From the NCBI RefSeq assembly GCF_947498005.1, contig NZ_CANMIW010000001.1, positions 62,001 through 126,000 of the forward strand: a DNA stretch of 64,000 nt, given 5' to 3'. Within the stretch, counting starts at the first letter, position 1. Every line of letters begins with the position of its first letter. A program made the translations under genes and the position numbers. This document shows positions 8,690 through 16,756 of the stretch, in pieces. The stretch is from an uncultured Winogradskyella sp. (GTDB lineage Bacteria; Bacteroidota; Bacteroidia; Flavobacteriales; Flavobacteriaceae). Under the pieces are notes generated by a model. The model saw only the letters and a program-made list of their open reading frames with translations. It made no database searches and was not told the origin of the DNA.

Positions 8690-9715
8690 ATGATAAAAAA
8701 CGATTTATTCCTTAGAGCATTAAAAGGCGAAACCGTAGAACGCCCACCAGTTTGGATGATGCGCCAAGCAGGTAGATATTTACCAGAGTTTATGGAAATC
8801 AAAGCGAAATATGATTTCTTTACACGTTGCCAAACACCAGAATTAGCAAGTGAAATAACGGTTCAACCAATTCGTCGTTACGGAATGGATGCTGCAATTT
8901 TGTTTTCAGATATTTTAGTGATTCCACAAGCGATGAATATTGAGGTACAGATGAAACCTAATTTTGGCCCTTATTTACCAAATCCTATTCGCTCTCAAAA
9001 GGATGTGAATAATGTTATTGTTCCTGATGTCAAAGAGGCTCTAAACTATGTTTACGAAGCTATAAAAGCGACTAAAGAAAAACTAAACGATGAAATTCCG
9101 TTAATTGGTTTTGCTGGTTCGCCATGGACCATCTTATGTTATTGTGTGCAAGGACAAGGCTCTAAAAACTTTGATAAAGCCAAAGAATTTTGTTTTACAA
9201 ATCCAATTGCTGCGCACCAGCTATTACAGAAGATTACAGATACAACCATTGCCTATTTAAAGGAAAAAGTAAAAGCAGGTTGTAATGCCGTTCAAGTATT
9301 CGATTCTTGGGGAGGCATGTTGTCGCCTGTAGATTATCAAGAATTTTCTTGGCAATATATTCAACAAATCATTGATGCTTTAAAAGACGACGCACCAGTA
9401 ATCGCCTTTGGAAAAGGCTGTTGGTTTGCCTTAGATACAATGGCAAAATCTGGCGCTTCAGCTTTAGGAGTCGATTGGACCTGTTCTGCTAAAAACGCAA
9501 GATACTTAACAGGAGGAAACATTACCTTACAAGGTAATTTTGACCCAACACGTTTATTTTCGCCACCTGCAGAAATCAAAAAGATGGTTACTCAGATGAT
9601 TAATGATTTCGGAAAAGATAAATATATCGTTAATTTAGGTCATGGTATTTTACCAAATATTCCTTTAGAGAATGCAAAAGCATTTATTGATGCTGTAAAA
9701 GAATATAAAAGCTAA
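8690..9715 (+). CDS. hemE: Uroporphyrinogen decarboxylase
   Basis: HemE removes four acetate carboxyls from uroporphyrinogen III to give coproporphyrinogen III in the cytoplasm. The 341-residue protein starts with the signature [17 protein letters not shown], carries the second signature [13 protein letters not shown], and has [11 protein letters not shown] and [11 protein letters not shown] near the end. Length is typical and no expected block is missing. It follows the S23 cassette immediately and precedes hemF by two genes, in pathway order. Confidence 0.97.
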
Positions 9716-9913: not shown

Positions 9914-10681
9914 ATGATAAAGAATATATTAAAAGGTATCCAAGCTTACACAGGTACGTTAGCTTTAATTTCAAAATTAAAACTTTGGAAGTATTTTGCT
10001 ATTCCTATAATCATTAGTGTTGTAACAGCATTTATCATAGGATTATCCGCTTACGGTTTGTCAGATAATATTGGTCGTTTTATTGCGAATATTTGGCCTT
10101 GGGATTGGGGAAGTGAAACCTTTGCTTCAATTTCTACTTTTATTGGAGGAATTGTTGTTATCGCGATTGGGCTTATCTTATACAAACATATTATCATGGC
10201 ATTTTCTGCGCCATTTATGAGTCCGGTTTCAGAAAAAATTGAAGCCCATCTCACAGGTATAGAACGTCATAACCATAGAAAAACCTCGTTTCAAGAACAA
10301 CTATGGAGAGGGATTAGAATAAACATTAGAAATTTAGGTAAAGAACTATTGTTTACAATTCCATTATTGGTATTAAAATTTATTCCGATTATTAATATAT
10401 TTTCAACCGTTTTATTATTTCTGTTACAAGCTTATTACGCAGGTTTTGGTAATATGGATTATACTTTAGAACGTCATTATAAATACAGAGAAAGCGTAAA
10501 ATTTGTTGGAAGACATAAAGGCATTGCCATAGGAAATGGTATCGTTTTTATGCTGTTTTTATTAATTCCTGTGGTGGGTGTTATTCTCGTTTTACCAATG
10601 AGTGTAACAGCATCTTCGCTTAATACCGTAAAATTAATTGAACAGGAAAAAACTTTAAGTCAAAATACAGTAGTCGTATAA
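9914..10681 (+). CDS. EI24 / CysZ-like integral membrane protein
   Basis: The 255-residue protein has about four to six hydrophobic segments: IPIIISVVTAFIIGLSAYG, ISTFIGGIVVIAIGLILY, LLVLKFIPIINIFSTVLLF and GIVFMLFLLIPVVGVILVL. The block HIIMAFSAPFMSPVSEKIE fits the EI24/CysZ domain. CysZ proteins import sulfate; EI24 members of Bacteroidota are uncharacterised. It shares a TAATG stop/start overlap with the following GNAT gene, so the two are co-translated. Confidence 0.75.
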   Translation: MIKNILKGIQAYTGTLALISKLKLWKYFAIPIIISVVTAFIIGLSAYGLSDNIGRFIANIWPWDWGSETFASISTFIGGIVVIAIGLILYKHIIMAFSAPFMSPVSEKIEAHLTGIERHNHRKTSFQEQLWRGIRINIRNLGKELLFTIPLLVLKFIPIINIFSTVLLFLLQAYYAGFGNMDYTLERHYKYRESVKFVGRHKGIAIGNGIVFMLFLLIPVVGVILVLPMSVTASSLNTVKLIEQEKTLSQNTVVV

Positions 10682-11238
10682 TGATTGCACTATTTAACGG
10701 TTTCGAAATTAATCCAATCCATAGTGGAGACGCTTGGAAAGTTTGTAATTTCTGTGTGGCCAATGAAGACCGATTAAAACGCTATTTCCCCAAAACTTTA
10801 GAACAAAATCTTAATCCGACCTTATCTAATTATTTTGTAGAGTCAAAAGTGAAAGCCTTTGAAAACAAAGATGAATTTCTATTCACATTAAAACATTCTG
10901 AAACAAGGGAACTAGCTGGATTAATCTATCTCAAAGAACTGAATTGGGAAACCAAGCAAGGCGAATTTGCGTATTGTATTGGCTATACATTTGAAGGGAA
11001 AGGCCTAACTTCTAAAGCGATTAAACACTTGTCTCAATACGCTTTTAATAATTTAAGCTTAGAAACACTTCAAATAATCGCACATAAAGACAATTTAGCG
11101 AGTGTAAATGTGGCTTTAAAAAATAATTTTACGTGGATAAAAACCTTGATTAATGAGTTTACACCAATTGGAGAAACACCTTTGGATATGGAGTTGTACG
11201 AGTTAGTTTCTGATTCCTGTAAGGTTTCCAAAACCTGA
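10681..11238 (+). CDS. GNAT-family N-acetyltransferase, C-terminus encoded by a REP palindrome
   Basis: The 185-residue protein matches the RimJ/RimL-type GNAT fold: LAGLIYLKELNWETKQGEFAY, then the acetyl-CoA loop GYTFEGKGLTSKAIKHLSQYA and the ASVNVALKNNF block. The substrate cannot be predicted. It begins at an ATG overlapping the stop of the EI24 gene. Its last codons and TGA stop (SCKVSKT*) lie inside the palindrome at 11216-11242, so the natural C-terminus may have been replaced when the repeat arrived. Confidence 0.87.
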   Translation: MIALFNGFEINPIHSGDAWKVCNFCVANEDRLKRYFPKTLEQNLNPTLSNYFVESKVKAFENKDEFLFTLKHSETRELAGLIYLKELNWETKQGEFAYCIGYTFEGKGLTSKAIKHLSQYAFNNLSLETLQIIAHKDNLASVNVALKNNFTWIKTLINEFTPIGETPLDMELYELVSDSCKVSKT

Positions 11239-11242
11239 CAGG
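11216..11242. repeat. REP-like palindrome copy 1
   Basis: CCTGTAAGGTTT and AAACCTGACAGG flank a 3-nt centre, with one mismatch between the arms. It overlaps the end of the GNAT gene and lies just upstream of the RAYT start. It is the same element as the copies at 11805, 12752, 13982 and 16730. Confidence 0.85.
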
Positions 11243-11280: not shown

Positions 11281-12744
11281 ATGGAAAAATTAAAAAAAGG
11301 GCATGTTTTTCACATTTATAACCGAGGAGTTAATGGAACCAACATTTTTAAAGATGACGATAATATGTCATATTTTTTAACTTTAGTTAAAAAACATCTT
11401 TCTGATTCTATTGCAATTCTAAGTTACTGTTTACTTAATAATCACTTTCATTTTATAGTTGAAATTAAAAATGACGATGCCTCACAAGCATTTTCAAATT
11501 TATTTAATGCTTACAGCAAAGCTTTCAATAAACAGAATTTTAGAACTGGCACTTTATTTGAACGTCCTTTTAAAAGAAAACTGATTAAAGACGAAGAATA
11601 TCTTAAAAACCTAATTATATACGTTCATAAAAATCCCGAAAATCACAAAATAACAGCGGATTTTTCCAGTTATAAATTCTCATCATTTCAGAGTTTTTTA
11701 ATAAATAGTGAAAGTATAATCGATTCAAAAAAAGACGATGTAATTTCGTTATTCGAAAACTTAGAAAACTTTAATTATATGCATCAAGATACTGCTAAAA
11801 AAGACCTGTCAGGTTTTGAAAACCTGACAGGAGATTTAAAGGTCAAAGACAAATTCTTCAAATACATTCACCAATTACAAGACACTATCACTTCTAAACT
11901 TGAAGCCGTAGACGGCAAAGCCACGTTTCAAGAAGATATTTGGGAACGCCCAGAAGGTGGTGGCGGACGAACACGCGTTATAGAAAACGGTAACGTTTTT
12001 GAAAAAGGTGGTGTCAATATCTCTGGTGTTCATGGGAAATTACCAGACTCTATGCAAAAATACTTAGGTGTAGAAGATGCCGATTTCTTTGCTTGCGGAC
12101 TAAGTTTAGTATTGCATCCTACAAACCCTATGGTGCCAACCGTTCATGCAAATTGGCGCTATTTTGAAATGTATGATAAAGACGGCAATATTGTAGACCA
12201 ATGGTTTGGCGGTGGACAAGACCTAACACCTTATTATCTGTTTGAAGACGATGCCAAACACTTCCATCAAACCTGCAAAACGGCTTGCGATAAGCATAAT
12301 CCCGAGTTTTATGCCAAATACAAAGCCCGTTGCGATGAGTATTTTTATAACGCACACCGAAATGAAAGGCGTGGTTTAGGAGGTTTATTCTTTGATTATT
12401 GCAAAGCAACAGATGAGATGAGTATGCAAAACTGGTACGACTTTGTCACTGAAGTTGGCGATAGTTTCTTAGAAGCCTATGTGCCGATTGTTGAAAAACG
12501 AAAAAAATTAAACTACACAAAAGCGCAACGCGACTGGCAAGAAATAAGAAGAGGACGTTATGTAGAATTCAATTTGGTGCATGATAAAGGCACGTTATTT
12601 GGTTTAAAAACTAATGGGCGAATTGAAAGTATTTTAATGAGTTTACCACCACATGTACAATGGGTTTACGACCATCATCCTGAAGCTGGAAGCGAAGAAG
12701 AAAAACTGATTAAAGTATTGCAAAATCCAGTGGACTGGGTTTGA
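11281..12744 (+). CDS. hemF: REP-associated tyrosine transposase fused in frame to coproporphyrinogen-III oxidase
   Basis: This one 487-codon frame holds two unrelated proteins. Residues 1-~170 are a RAYT (Y1/IS200-like HUH) domain: HIYNRGVNGTNIF, the HUH motif NNHFHFIV (His55, His57), FNAYSKAFNK, GTLFERPFKRK and the tyrosine helix IIYVHKNPENHK (Tyr114). It looks complete. Residues ~172-187 are encoded by a perfect REP palindrome. Residues ~188-487 are full-length aerobic HemF: ERPEGGGGRTRVIENG, HPTNPMVPTVHANWR, GGGQDLTPYY, HRNERRGLGGLFFD, RRGRYVEFNL and the terminal VDWV. HemF oxidatively decarboxylates coproporphyrinogen III using O2. At the expected HemF start (11842) the codon is GTC, not a start codon. 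HemF must therefore be made as the fusion or from an internal start such as the ATG at 11779. Confidence 0.9.
   Translation: MEKLKKGHVFHIYNRGVNGTNIFKDDDNMSYFLTLVKKHLSDSIAILSYCLLNNHFHFIVEIKNDDASQAFSNLFNAYSKAFNKQNFRTGTLFERPFKRKLIKDEEYLKNLIIYVHKNPENHKITADFSSYKFSSFQSFLINSESIIDSKKDDVISLFENLENFNYMHQDTAKKDLSGFENLTGDLKVKDKFFKYIHQLQDTITSKLEAVDGKATFQEDIWERPEGGGGRTRVIENGNVFEKGGVNISGVHGKLPDSMQKYLGVEDADFFACGLSLVLHPTNPMVPTVHANWRYFEMYDKDGNIVDQWFGGGQDLTPYYLFEDDAKHFHQTCKTACDKHNPEFYAKYKARCDEYFYNAHRNERRGLGGLFFDYCKATDEMSMQNWYDFVTEVGDSFLEAYVPIVEKRKKLNYTKAQRDWQEIRRGRYVEFNLVHDKGTLFGLKTNGRIESILMSLPPHVQWVYDHHPEAGSEEEKLIKVLQNPVDWV
11805..11831. repeat. REP-like palindrome copy 2, inside the RAYT-hemF frame
   Basis: CCTGTCAGGTTTT and AAAACCTGACAGG are perfect 13-bp arms around a single G. 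The element is translated in frame as part of the linker LSGFENLTG between the transposase and HemF. With copy 1 it brackets the transposase, giving a unit of about 616 bp. Confidence 0.92.
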
Positions 12745-12751
12745 TTTAAAT

Positions 12752-12784
12752 AGACCTGTCAGGTTTTAAAAACCTGACAGGTCT
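12752..12784. repeat. REP-like palindrome copy 3
   Basis: Perfect 16-bp arms starting AGACCTGTCAGG surround a single A, between the hemF stop and the ychJ-like gene. A downstream T-tract is missing, so it is not a canonical terminator. Confidence 0.92.
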
Positions 12785-13981: not shown

Positions 13982-14014
13982 AGACCTTTCAGGTTTTTGA
14001 AACCTGTCAGGTCT
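13982..14014. repeat. REP-like palindrome copy 4
   Basis: AGACCTTTCAGG and CCTGTCAGGTCT form imperfect 15-bp arms with two changed positions relative to copy 3. It occupies the 57-bp gap between two convergent genes and could terminate both, though no T-tract follows. Confidence 0.88.
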
Positions 14015-16729: not shown

Positions 16730-16756
16730 CCTGTCAGGTTTCAAAAACCTGACAGG
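16730..16756. repeat. REP-like palindrome copy 5
   Basis: CCTGTCAGGTTT and AAACCTGACAGG are perfect 12-bp arms around CAA. It lies 19 bp before the hemB start codon and would fold within any hemB leader transcribed from upstream. Confidence 0.92.

Follow-up and report, generated by a model that had tools for sequence, protein, structure and literature searches.

In many marine flavobacteria a REP-associated tyrosine transposase (RAYT) is predicted, from the course of its reading frame, to be joined to the haem enzyme HemF through the transposase's own repeat. The reading of this architecture that we favour, with a probability of about 0.68, is that a RAYT lying near hemF was welded to it via its 3' REP, and that the weld may have been kept because translation of hemF would depend on the upstream reading frame. 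The case described here lies in a 64-kb stretch of Winogradskyella DNA, referred to throughout as the window, in which the genes, domains and REPs of the fused locus are all on the forward strand.

The fused frame and its two halves

A reading of the open reading frames of the window found one stop-free frame of 487 codons, which starts with the ATG at 11281 and whose stop codon has its last base at 12744 (11281-12744; 487 amino acids), and a genome search found it once in the window's own genome. An earlier note, made from the letters of the DNA, had claimed that a RAYT and a full-length HemF share this frame, and both the frame itself and the profile matches bear this out. HemF, the oxygen-dependent coproporphyrinogen oxidase, takes up residues 189-487 (11845-12741): Pfam Coprogen_oxidas matches residues 193-486 at 1.4e-134 (447.8 bits against a cut-off of 31.8), the NCBIfam model reaches 421.1 bits against a cut-off of 297 with the domain present at full length, and nine distinct solved chain sequences match, all at 4.2e-64 or better. 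Residues 1-168 (11281-11784) make up a RAYT-like HUH/Y1 transposase domain, recognised by profile match and alignments. Here NCBIfam REP_Tyr_transpos (NF047646) matches residues 7-134 at 3.8e-13 with 49.6 bits, below its 80-bit cut-off, and Pfam Y1_Tnp scores 16.7 bits, below its cut-off of 23; with both curated cut-offs missed, this half is best regarded as a divergent relative, and is hence termed RAYT-like. Run against solved structures, the RAYT profile returned nothing at E<=0.01.

The catalytic residues that the earlier note had picked out, namely His55 (11443-11445), His57 (11449-11451) and Tyr114 (11620-11622), are invariant in alignments of 19 and 56 rows. Across the 63 distinct fused loci assembled below, His57 and Tyr114 are kept in every one and His55 in 62, the sole exception being L085, which has Q at that position. 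Median dN/dS is 0.16 for the RAYT part of fusions (69 close pairs) and 0.09 for unfused RAYTs (64 pairs), with HemF at 0.05 in fused and 0.06 in unfused loci, the pairs being overlapping ones; such values indicate that the RAYT part of the fusion is under purifying selection. To judge by its sequence, this half is apparently an active REP transposase.

In the window, the two halves are connected by a linker of 20 residues (11785-11844). It contains, as the earlier note had it, a perfect REP palindrome (11805-11831, without mismatch), whose codons read DLSGFENLTG. The RAYT unit has a 5' REP with two mismatches at 11216-11242, which includes the TGA (11236-11238) that ends the upstream GNAT gene, and a 3' REP stands directly after the hemF stop (12755-12781). 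Five REP sites with three mismatches or fewer occur in the window, against none expected by shuffling. More palindromes of the linker type lie outside the fusion, at 13985-14011 and 16730-16756.

Distribution and history

Rather than a single capture by HemF in one genome, the fusion is a conserved architecture. It is present in 26 of 68 Winogradskyella genomes (22 matched over near-full length and four as two pieces of one frame, which were verified); among the other 42, 40 have no RAYT match and G005 and G062 have only decayed or weak pieces. At E<=1e-8, a RAYT was found in 63 of 397 Flavobacteriaceae genomes. Seventeen of the 397 carry it within a frame of 490-553 amino acids, and all 17 are HemF fusions, drawn from 16 genus groups of this one family sample. 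Among the best 80 of 283 RAYT relatives in named genomes, 40 are fused, 29 are separate with hemF downstream and 11 are without a hemF in view. Two of those 11 leave their contig early, L116 inside the first residues of HemF and L132 with the frame still open; in the other nine, about 4 kb of downstream sequence contains no hemF, which shows that a RAYT of this kind can also occur away from that gene. Fused genera are Winogradskyella, Gelidibacter, Flavivirga, Lacinutrix, Algibacter, Seonamhaeicola, Flaviramulus, Polaribacter, Hyunsoonleella, Aestuariivivens, Maribacter and Sediminicola (the Aestuariivivens, Algibacter pacificus and Sediminicola fusions occur also as duplicates in the locus collection). 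Outside the family, no HemF-sized fusion was present among the RAYT matches listed for 395 genomes of the class at E<=1e-15, the longest matching frame among these having 379 amino acids.

For comparison of loci, 158 were reduced to 136 by dropping identical or short hemF sequences, leaving 63 fused, 32 with the RAYT separate upstream, one remnant and 40 RAYT-less. All of these 40 are from Winogradskyella (G043, whose hemF is cut by a contig end, was left out), and the loci of other genera were found via their RAYT and are thus uninformative on its absence there.

The window's genome has one RAYT of its type, and the fused RAYT is single-copy in each of the 26 genomes of the genus that carry it. 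The only extras are an intact unfused RAYT in G021 (47% identical) and a decayed piece in G022; the several near-identical transposase copies per genome that mark IS200/IS605 elements were not seen in the 68 genomes of the genus. REPs number a median of 15.5 per genome (2-41) in the 26 fused genomes versus 0 (0-20) in the 42 without the fusion (Mann-Whitney p 3e-11, uncorrected for kinship, which confounds the count), and G029 has 20 REPs yet no RAYT. The decayed piece of G022 (C22:60745-60993, L209) lies just upstream of the intact fused RAYT, as would be expected had one RAYT taken over the site of another. A further locus, L208 in G757, has a partial RAYT match (positions 4-105) at the head of a 372-amino-acid frame whose C-terminal part is unrelated, and looks degenerate.

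Wherever hemE is in sequence, the RAYT of fused or adjacent loci lies between hemE and hemF, with the exception of Mesonia (L155), in which it precedes hemE. In Flavobacterium the RAYT is separate; in the fused species it stands directly before hemF. RAYTs of this clade are commonly found between hemE and hemF in Flavobacteriaceae, and one was probably already resident near hemF before the two were joined. In the window, the same gene string comprises a gene (8690-9715) that, to judge by its sequence and place, is probably hemE (uroporphyrinogen decarboxylase), an EI24/CysZ-like gene (9914-10681) and a GNAT acetyltransferase gene (10681-11238), the upstream neighbour of the fused frame.

The RAYT and HemF trees conflict, so any history of the join drawn from them is tentative. 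The fused state requires 22 changes on the hemF tree versus 6-8 on the RAYT tree, and the hemF data reject each of the three Winogradskyella RAYT clades with an AU p of 2e-8 or less, these clades having been named from the RAYT alignment and tested after the hemF tree was seen. The RAYT tree is compatible with a single origin followed by a few losses, though the join may also have arisen several times. In three sister pairs, L003/L004, L018/L020 and L015/L016, hemF has diverged further than the RAYT; in L003/L004 and L018/L020 it also exceeds the upstream neighbours in divergence. Among RAYT-less pairs, hemF is more diverged than GNAT in L046/L060 and L055/L056, and not in L053/L058 (a hemF dN of 0.648 for L013/L019 was disregarded, as it stems from an unaligned insertion). 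This divergence of hemF unlike that of its neighbours in some sister pairs, whether fused or not, points to recombination. Transfer of RAYT cassettes between species, into one and the same site, was considered because RAYT dS is far below hemF dS in some sister pairs. It was dropped, because in L003/L004 and L018/L020 the upstream sequence is nearly as similar as the RAYT, leaving hemF as the odd part, and because an excess in hemF is found in some RAYT-less pairs too.

The linker repeat, HemF starts and translation

Over the 63 fused loci, the linker measures 18-50 residues, with one of 137, and comes in 26 distinct lengths that are all in frame. The longest, in Maribacter polysiphoniae (L139:3995-5824), carries repeated REP-containing stretches in frame, and some linkers hold two or three REPs. 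By rule, a REP hairpin is present in 59 of the 63 linkers, the exceptions being L005, L071, L073 and L113; to the eye, the linkers of L005, L071 and L113 look remnant-like. The hairpins keep a mean of 10.6 of 12 pairs versus 5.8 expected from 2000 synonymous re-encodings of the same peptide, an excess with p<0.05 in 57 of the 59 linkers (the loci are related, so the p-values are non-independent). With the commonest pair as reference, both arms have changed to match in L034, L112, L130 and L007/L008, where one of the two changes is non-synonymous, and likewise in L122 and L090, where both are. All three frames are used to translate the best palindrome (in 48, 9 and 2 loci), which argues that the DNA is kept and not the peptide. 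A 5' REP is found in 56 of the 61 fused loci with enough 5' sequence and is missing from five; relative to the linker REP it is inverted in 26 of 53 cases, direct in three and undecided in 24. The fused RAYT is therefore flanked by REPs in the manner of its family, in inverted orientation only in part.

Under the favoured reading, hemF would be translated in step with the gene that precedes it, often GNAT when the RAYT is absent, and would, in these species at any rate, need a ribosome arriving from there. A REP-RAYT-REP unit directly before hemF would remove that coupling, which could then be restored by an in-frame join through the REP or, in two loci, by a stop that abuts or overlaps the hemF start. 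The locus would thereby come to encode one bifunctional polypeptide, with the 3' flanking REP of the RAYT read through as a linker into HemF, and we infer that this fused protein is made and needed and that both of its domains work. After the join, the native hemF start would be free to decay; with that start decayed, a frameshift or stop in the RAYT would also remove HemF, so the RAYT frame would be hard to lose and the transposase would be held in place by the enzyme.

Gene order in the 41 Winogradskyella loci that are RAYT-less or RAYT-decayed bears on this proposal. GNAT is present in 30 of them, the other 11 being without it in the stretch examined. In 19 its stop falls 0-10 nt before the hemF start, most often at a distance of 3 nt from a TTG, and in six it overlaps that start, such that GNAT ends within 10 nt of the hemF start or overlaps it in 25 of the 41; in five of the 41 it lies 47 nt or more from hemF, and coupling to GNAT is thus not general. 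Of the RAYTs whose end is no more than 150 nt from hemF, 62 are fused and two are not: the RAYT stop of L080 shares bases with the hemF start (ATGA), and that of L078 is 8 nt away from it. The join can also be undone, as G005 keeps a decayed RAYT and L055/L056 have REP-like sequence before hemF together with a new start. The earlier note had called HemF essential, but it may not be: full oxygen-independent HemN scores above cut-off in 57 of 68 Winogradskyella genomes, including that of the window. In the fused genomes G017 and G055 (99% complete) HemN matches only below cut-off, and HemF there may be the sole such enzyme.

The earlier note had further proposed that HemF seems to have lost its own start and depends on the transposase frame or on an internal ATG. 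The loss stands: the last linker codon, codon 188 (11842-11844), is the GTC which that note reported at the expected HemF start, and it lies where relatives have their HemF start codon. The dependence on the RAYT frame draws its support from comparison among loci, and has to be weighed against the view that HemF is made alone by internal initiation, from a native ATG, from ATC or ATA or from an ATG in the RAYT C-terminus, with the joined frame a by-product of tight packing and read-through minor. Such a view, which we consider unlikely, can point to the 24 of 63 fused loci that keep an ATG at the native position and the three that have GTG or TTG there, and to the hemF 5' ends of close relatives, whose comparison the earlier note had proposed: the RAYT unit is present in some and absent in others, and RAYT-less relatives mostly have TTG or ATG at the native start. 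It can point as well to the in-frame ATG at 11779-11781, present where the earlier note had placed it, which is 22 codons upstream and is the nearest possible internal HemF start in the window. The same ATG is found in all four loci of the window's clade (L001-L004), which belong to a set of nine loci that lack a start in the linker and offer an in-frame ATG no more than 35 codons from HemF, within the RAYT C-terminus. ATC or ATA stands at the native position in 20 fused loci and might serve as a weak start. Against internal initiation, the native position is without a start codon in 36 of the 63 loci, and the linker offers no ATG, GTG or TTG in 28. Nine of these 28, other than the nine just named, lack all three over the 40 codons preceding HemF. 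L018, L020 and L023 have no ATG closer than that of the RAYT itself, 210 codons off, and their closest GTG or TTG is 56 codons off; in L081 and L082 the nearest start of any kind is 95 and 68 codons away. Two separate genes, moreover, would not need 26 linker lengths that are all in frame. Parsimony on the RAYT tree counts 43 changes of linker length versus six between fused and unfused; as that tree has many weak branches, the 25 changes that follow from the 26 lengths alone are the safe floor, and roughly two thirds of such changes should break the frame were it not needed. With no stop in the way, translation from the RAYT start must continue into HemF, and once joined HemF probably cannot be made without the transposase frame.

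A joint function, with the RAYT under the control of the HemF half or HemF under that of the RAYT/REP half (for example via a REP hairpin in the mRNA), strikes us as very improbable. The conservation of the hairpin in coding DNA beyond what the peptide needs, the purifying selection on both domains and the position of unfused RAYTs near hem genes in many loci would all suit it, but neither linker length nor REP reading frame is conserved, which implies no fixed contact between the domains, and close species manage without the fusion. That the frame is an assembly artefact, or a decaying transposase pseudogene open by chance, is almost certainly wrong: the single copy in the genome and the RAYT scores below curated cut-offs might suggest as much, but sequencing error, misassembly and a single chance event are rejected in view of the 26 of 68 genus and 17 of 397 family genomes with the fusion, as is a RAYT pseudogene in view of the dN/dS and catalytic residues given above.

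Relation to known elements and meaning

In the RAYT descriptions of PMC2817692 and PMC8049555, these transposases have an HUH motif, a catalytic Tyr and flanking inverted REPs; an NP(L/V)(R/K)xG motif by the Tyr and a conserved N-terminal Thr are among the hallmarks described in PMC2817692, and RAYTs are described in PMC8049555 as single-copy, vertically inherited and domesticated, with their exact function unknown. The system in the window is like RAYT or TnpA-REP in its HUH, its Tyr, its flanking REPs, its occurrence mostly as one copy and the greater number of REPs where the RAYT is present. The NP(L/V)(R/K)xG motif is absent from the window's RAYT, which has NPENHKI after the Tyr instead, and the system differs above all in that its 3' REP lies inside a coding frame and links the RAYT to a metabolic enzyme. 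HemF is not mentioned in the RAYT descriptions of those two papers, and no prior report of a RAYT-HemF fusion was found among the titles and abstract openings of open-licence papers. TnpA-Y1 subclass 2.6, by its description in PMC6006769, is found in Bacteroidetes, with NH[LIV]H and YIH[QN]NP motifs, a size of 179 amino acids and atypical structures. The window's RAYT shares with that description the phylum, a similar size (168 residues up to the linker) and a Y-x-H-x-NP motif, and differs from it in being fused and in having NHFH and YVHKNP, the comparison being with that published description. Set against oxygen-dependent coproporphyrinogen oxidase in its usual form, the HemF half has the full-length domain, plus an N-terminal transposase and, in the window, minus its own start codon.

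HemF is not the only partner. In the search of 397 family genomes, G290 (L207:2118-5000) was found to have a RAYT within a frame of 1029 amino acids, joined to a PIF1/HRDC helicase through a linker with a translated perfect palindrome of 17-nt arms; the same palindrome also occurs inside the RAYT. The join recurs in G848 (L211), where the palindrome has 16-nt arms, and in G849 (L212), in whose linker no palindrome was found. It is thus present in three of the six genomes searched in one genus group, where G446 and G846 have the helicase without a RAYT match and G847 has only a RAYT piece. Like RAYT-HemF, this fusion sets a RAYT in frame with a protein unrelated to it, and in two of the three helicase loci a translated palindrome makes the join; unlike RAYT-HemF, it has another partner and another palindrome, the latter inserted within the RAYT as well in those two.

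With HemF as partner over much of the family and, separately, the PIF1 helicase, we tentatively suggest, at somewhat short of even odds, that RAYTs persist by fusing to other genes through read-through of their REPs: the element would write its own repeat as a coding linker, make a housekeeping gene's start its own and be protected by that gene while still serving its REPs. If this is true, REPs would be able to make new multidomain proteins: one DNA repeat, kept both as a hairpin and as protein code, would offer a possible route from mobile repeats to fusion proteins. These loci bring a possible physical reason for RAYTs to stay in their genomes, namely that translation of a haem enzyme would now begin in the RAYT frame. 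Being welded to HemF may thus explain how the element keeps its place in the genome.
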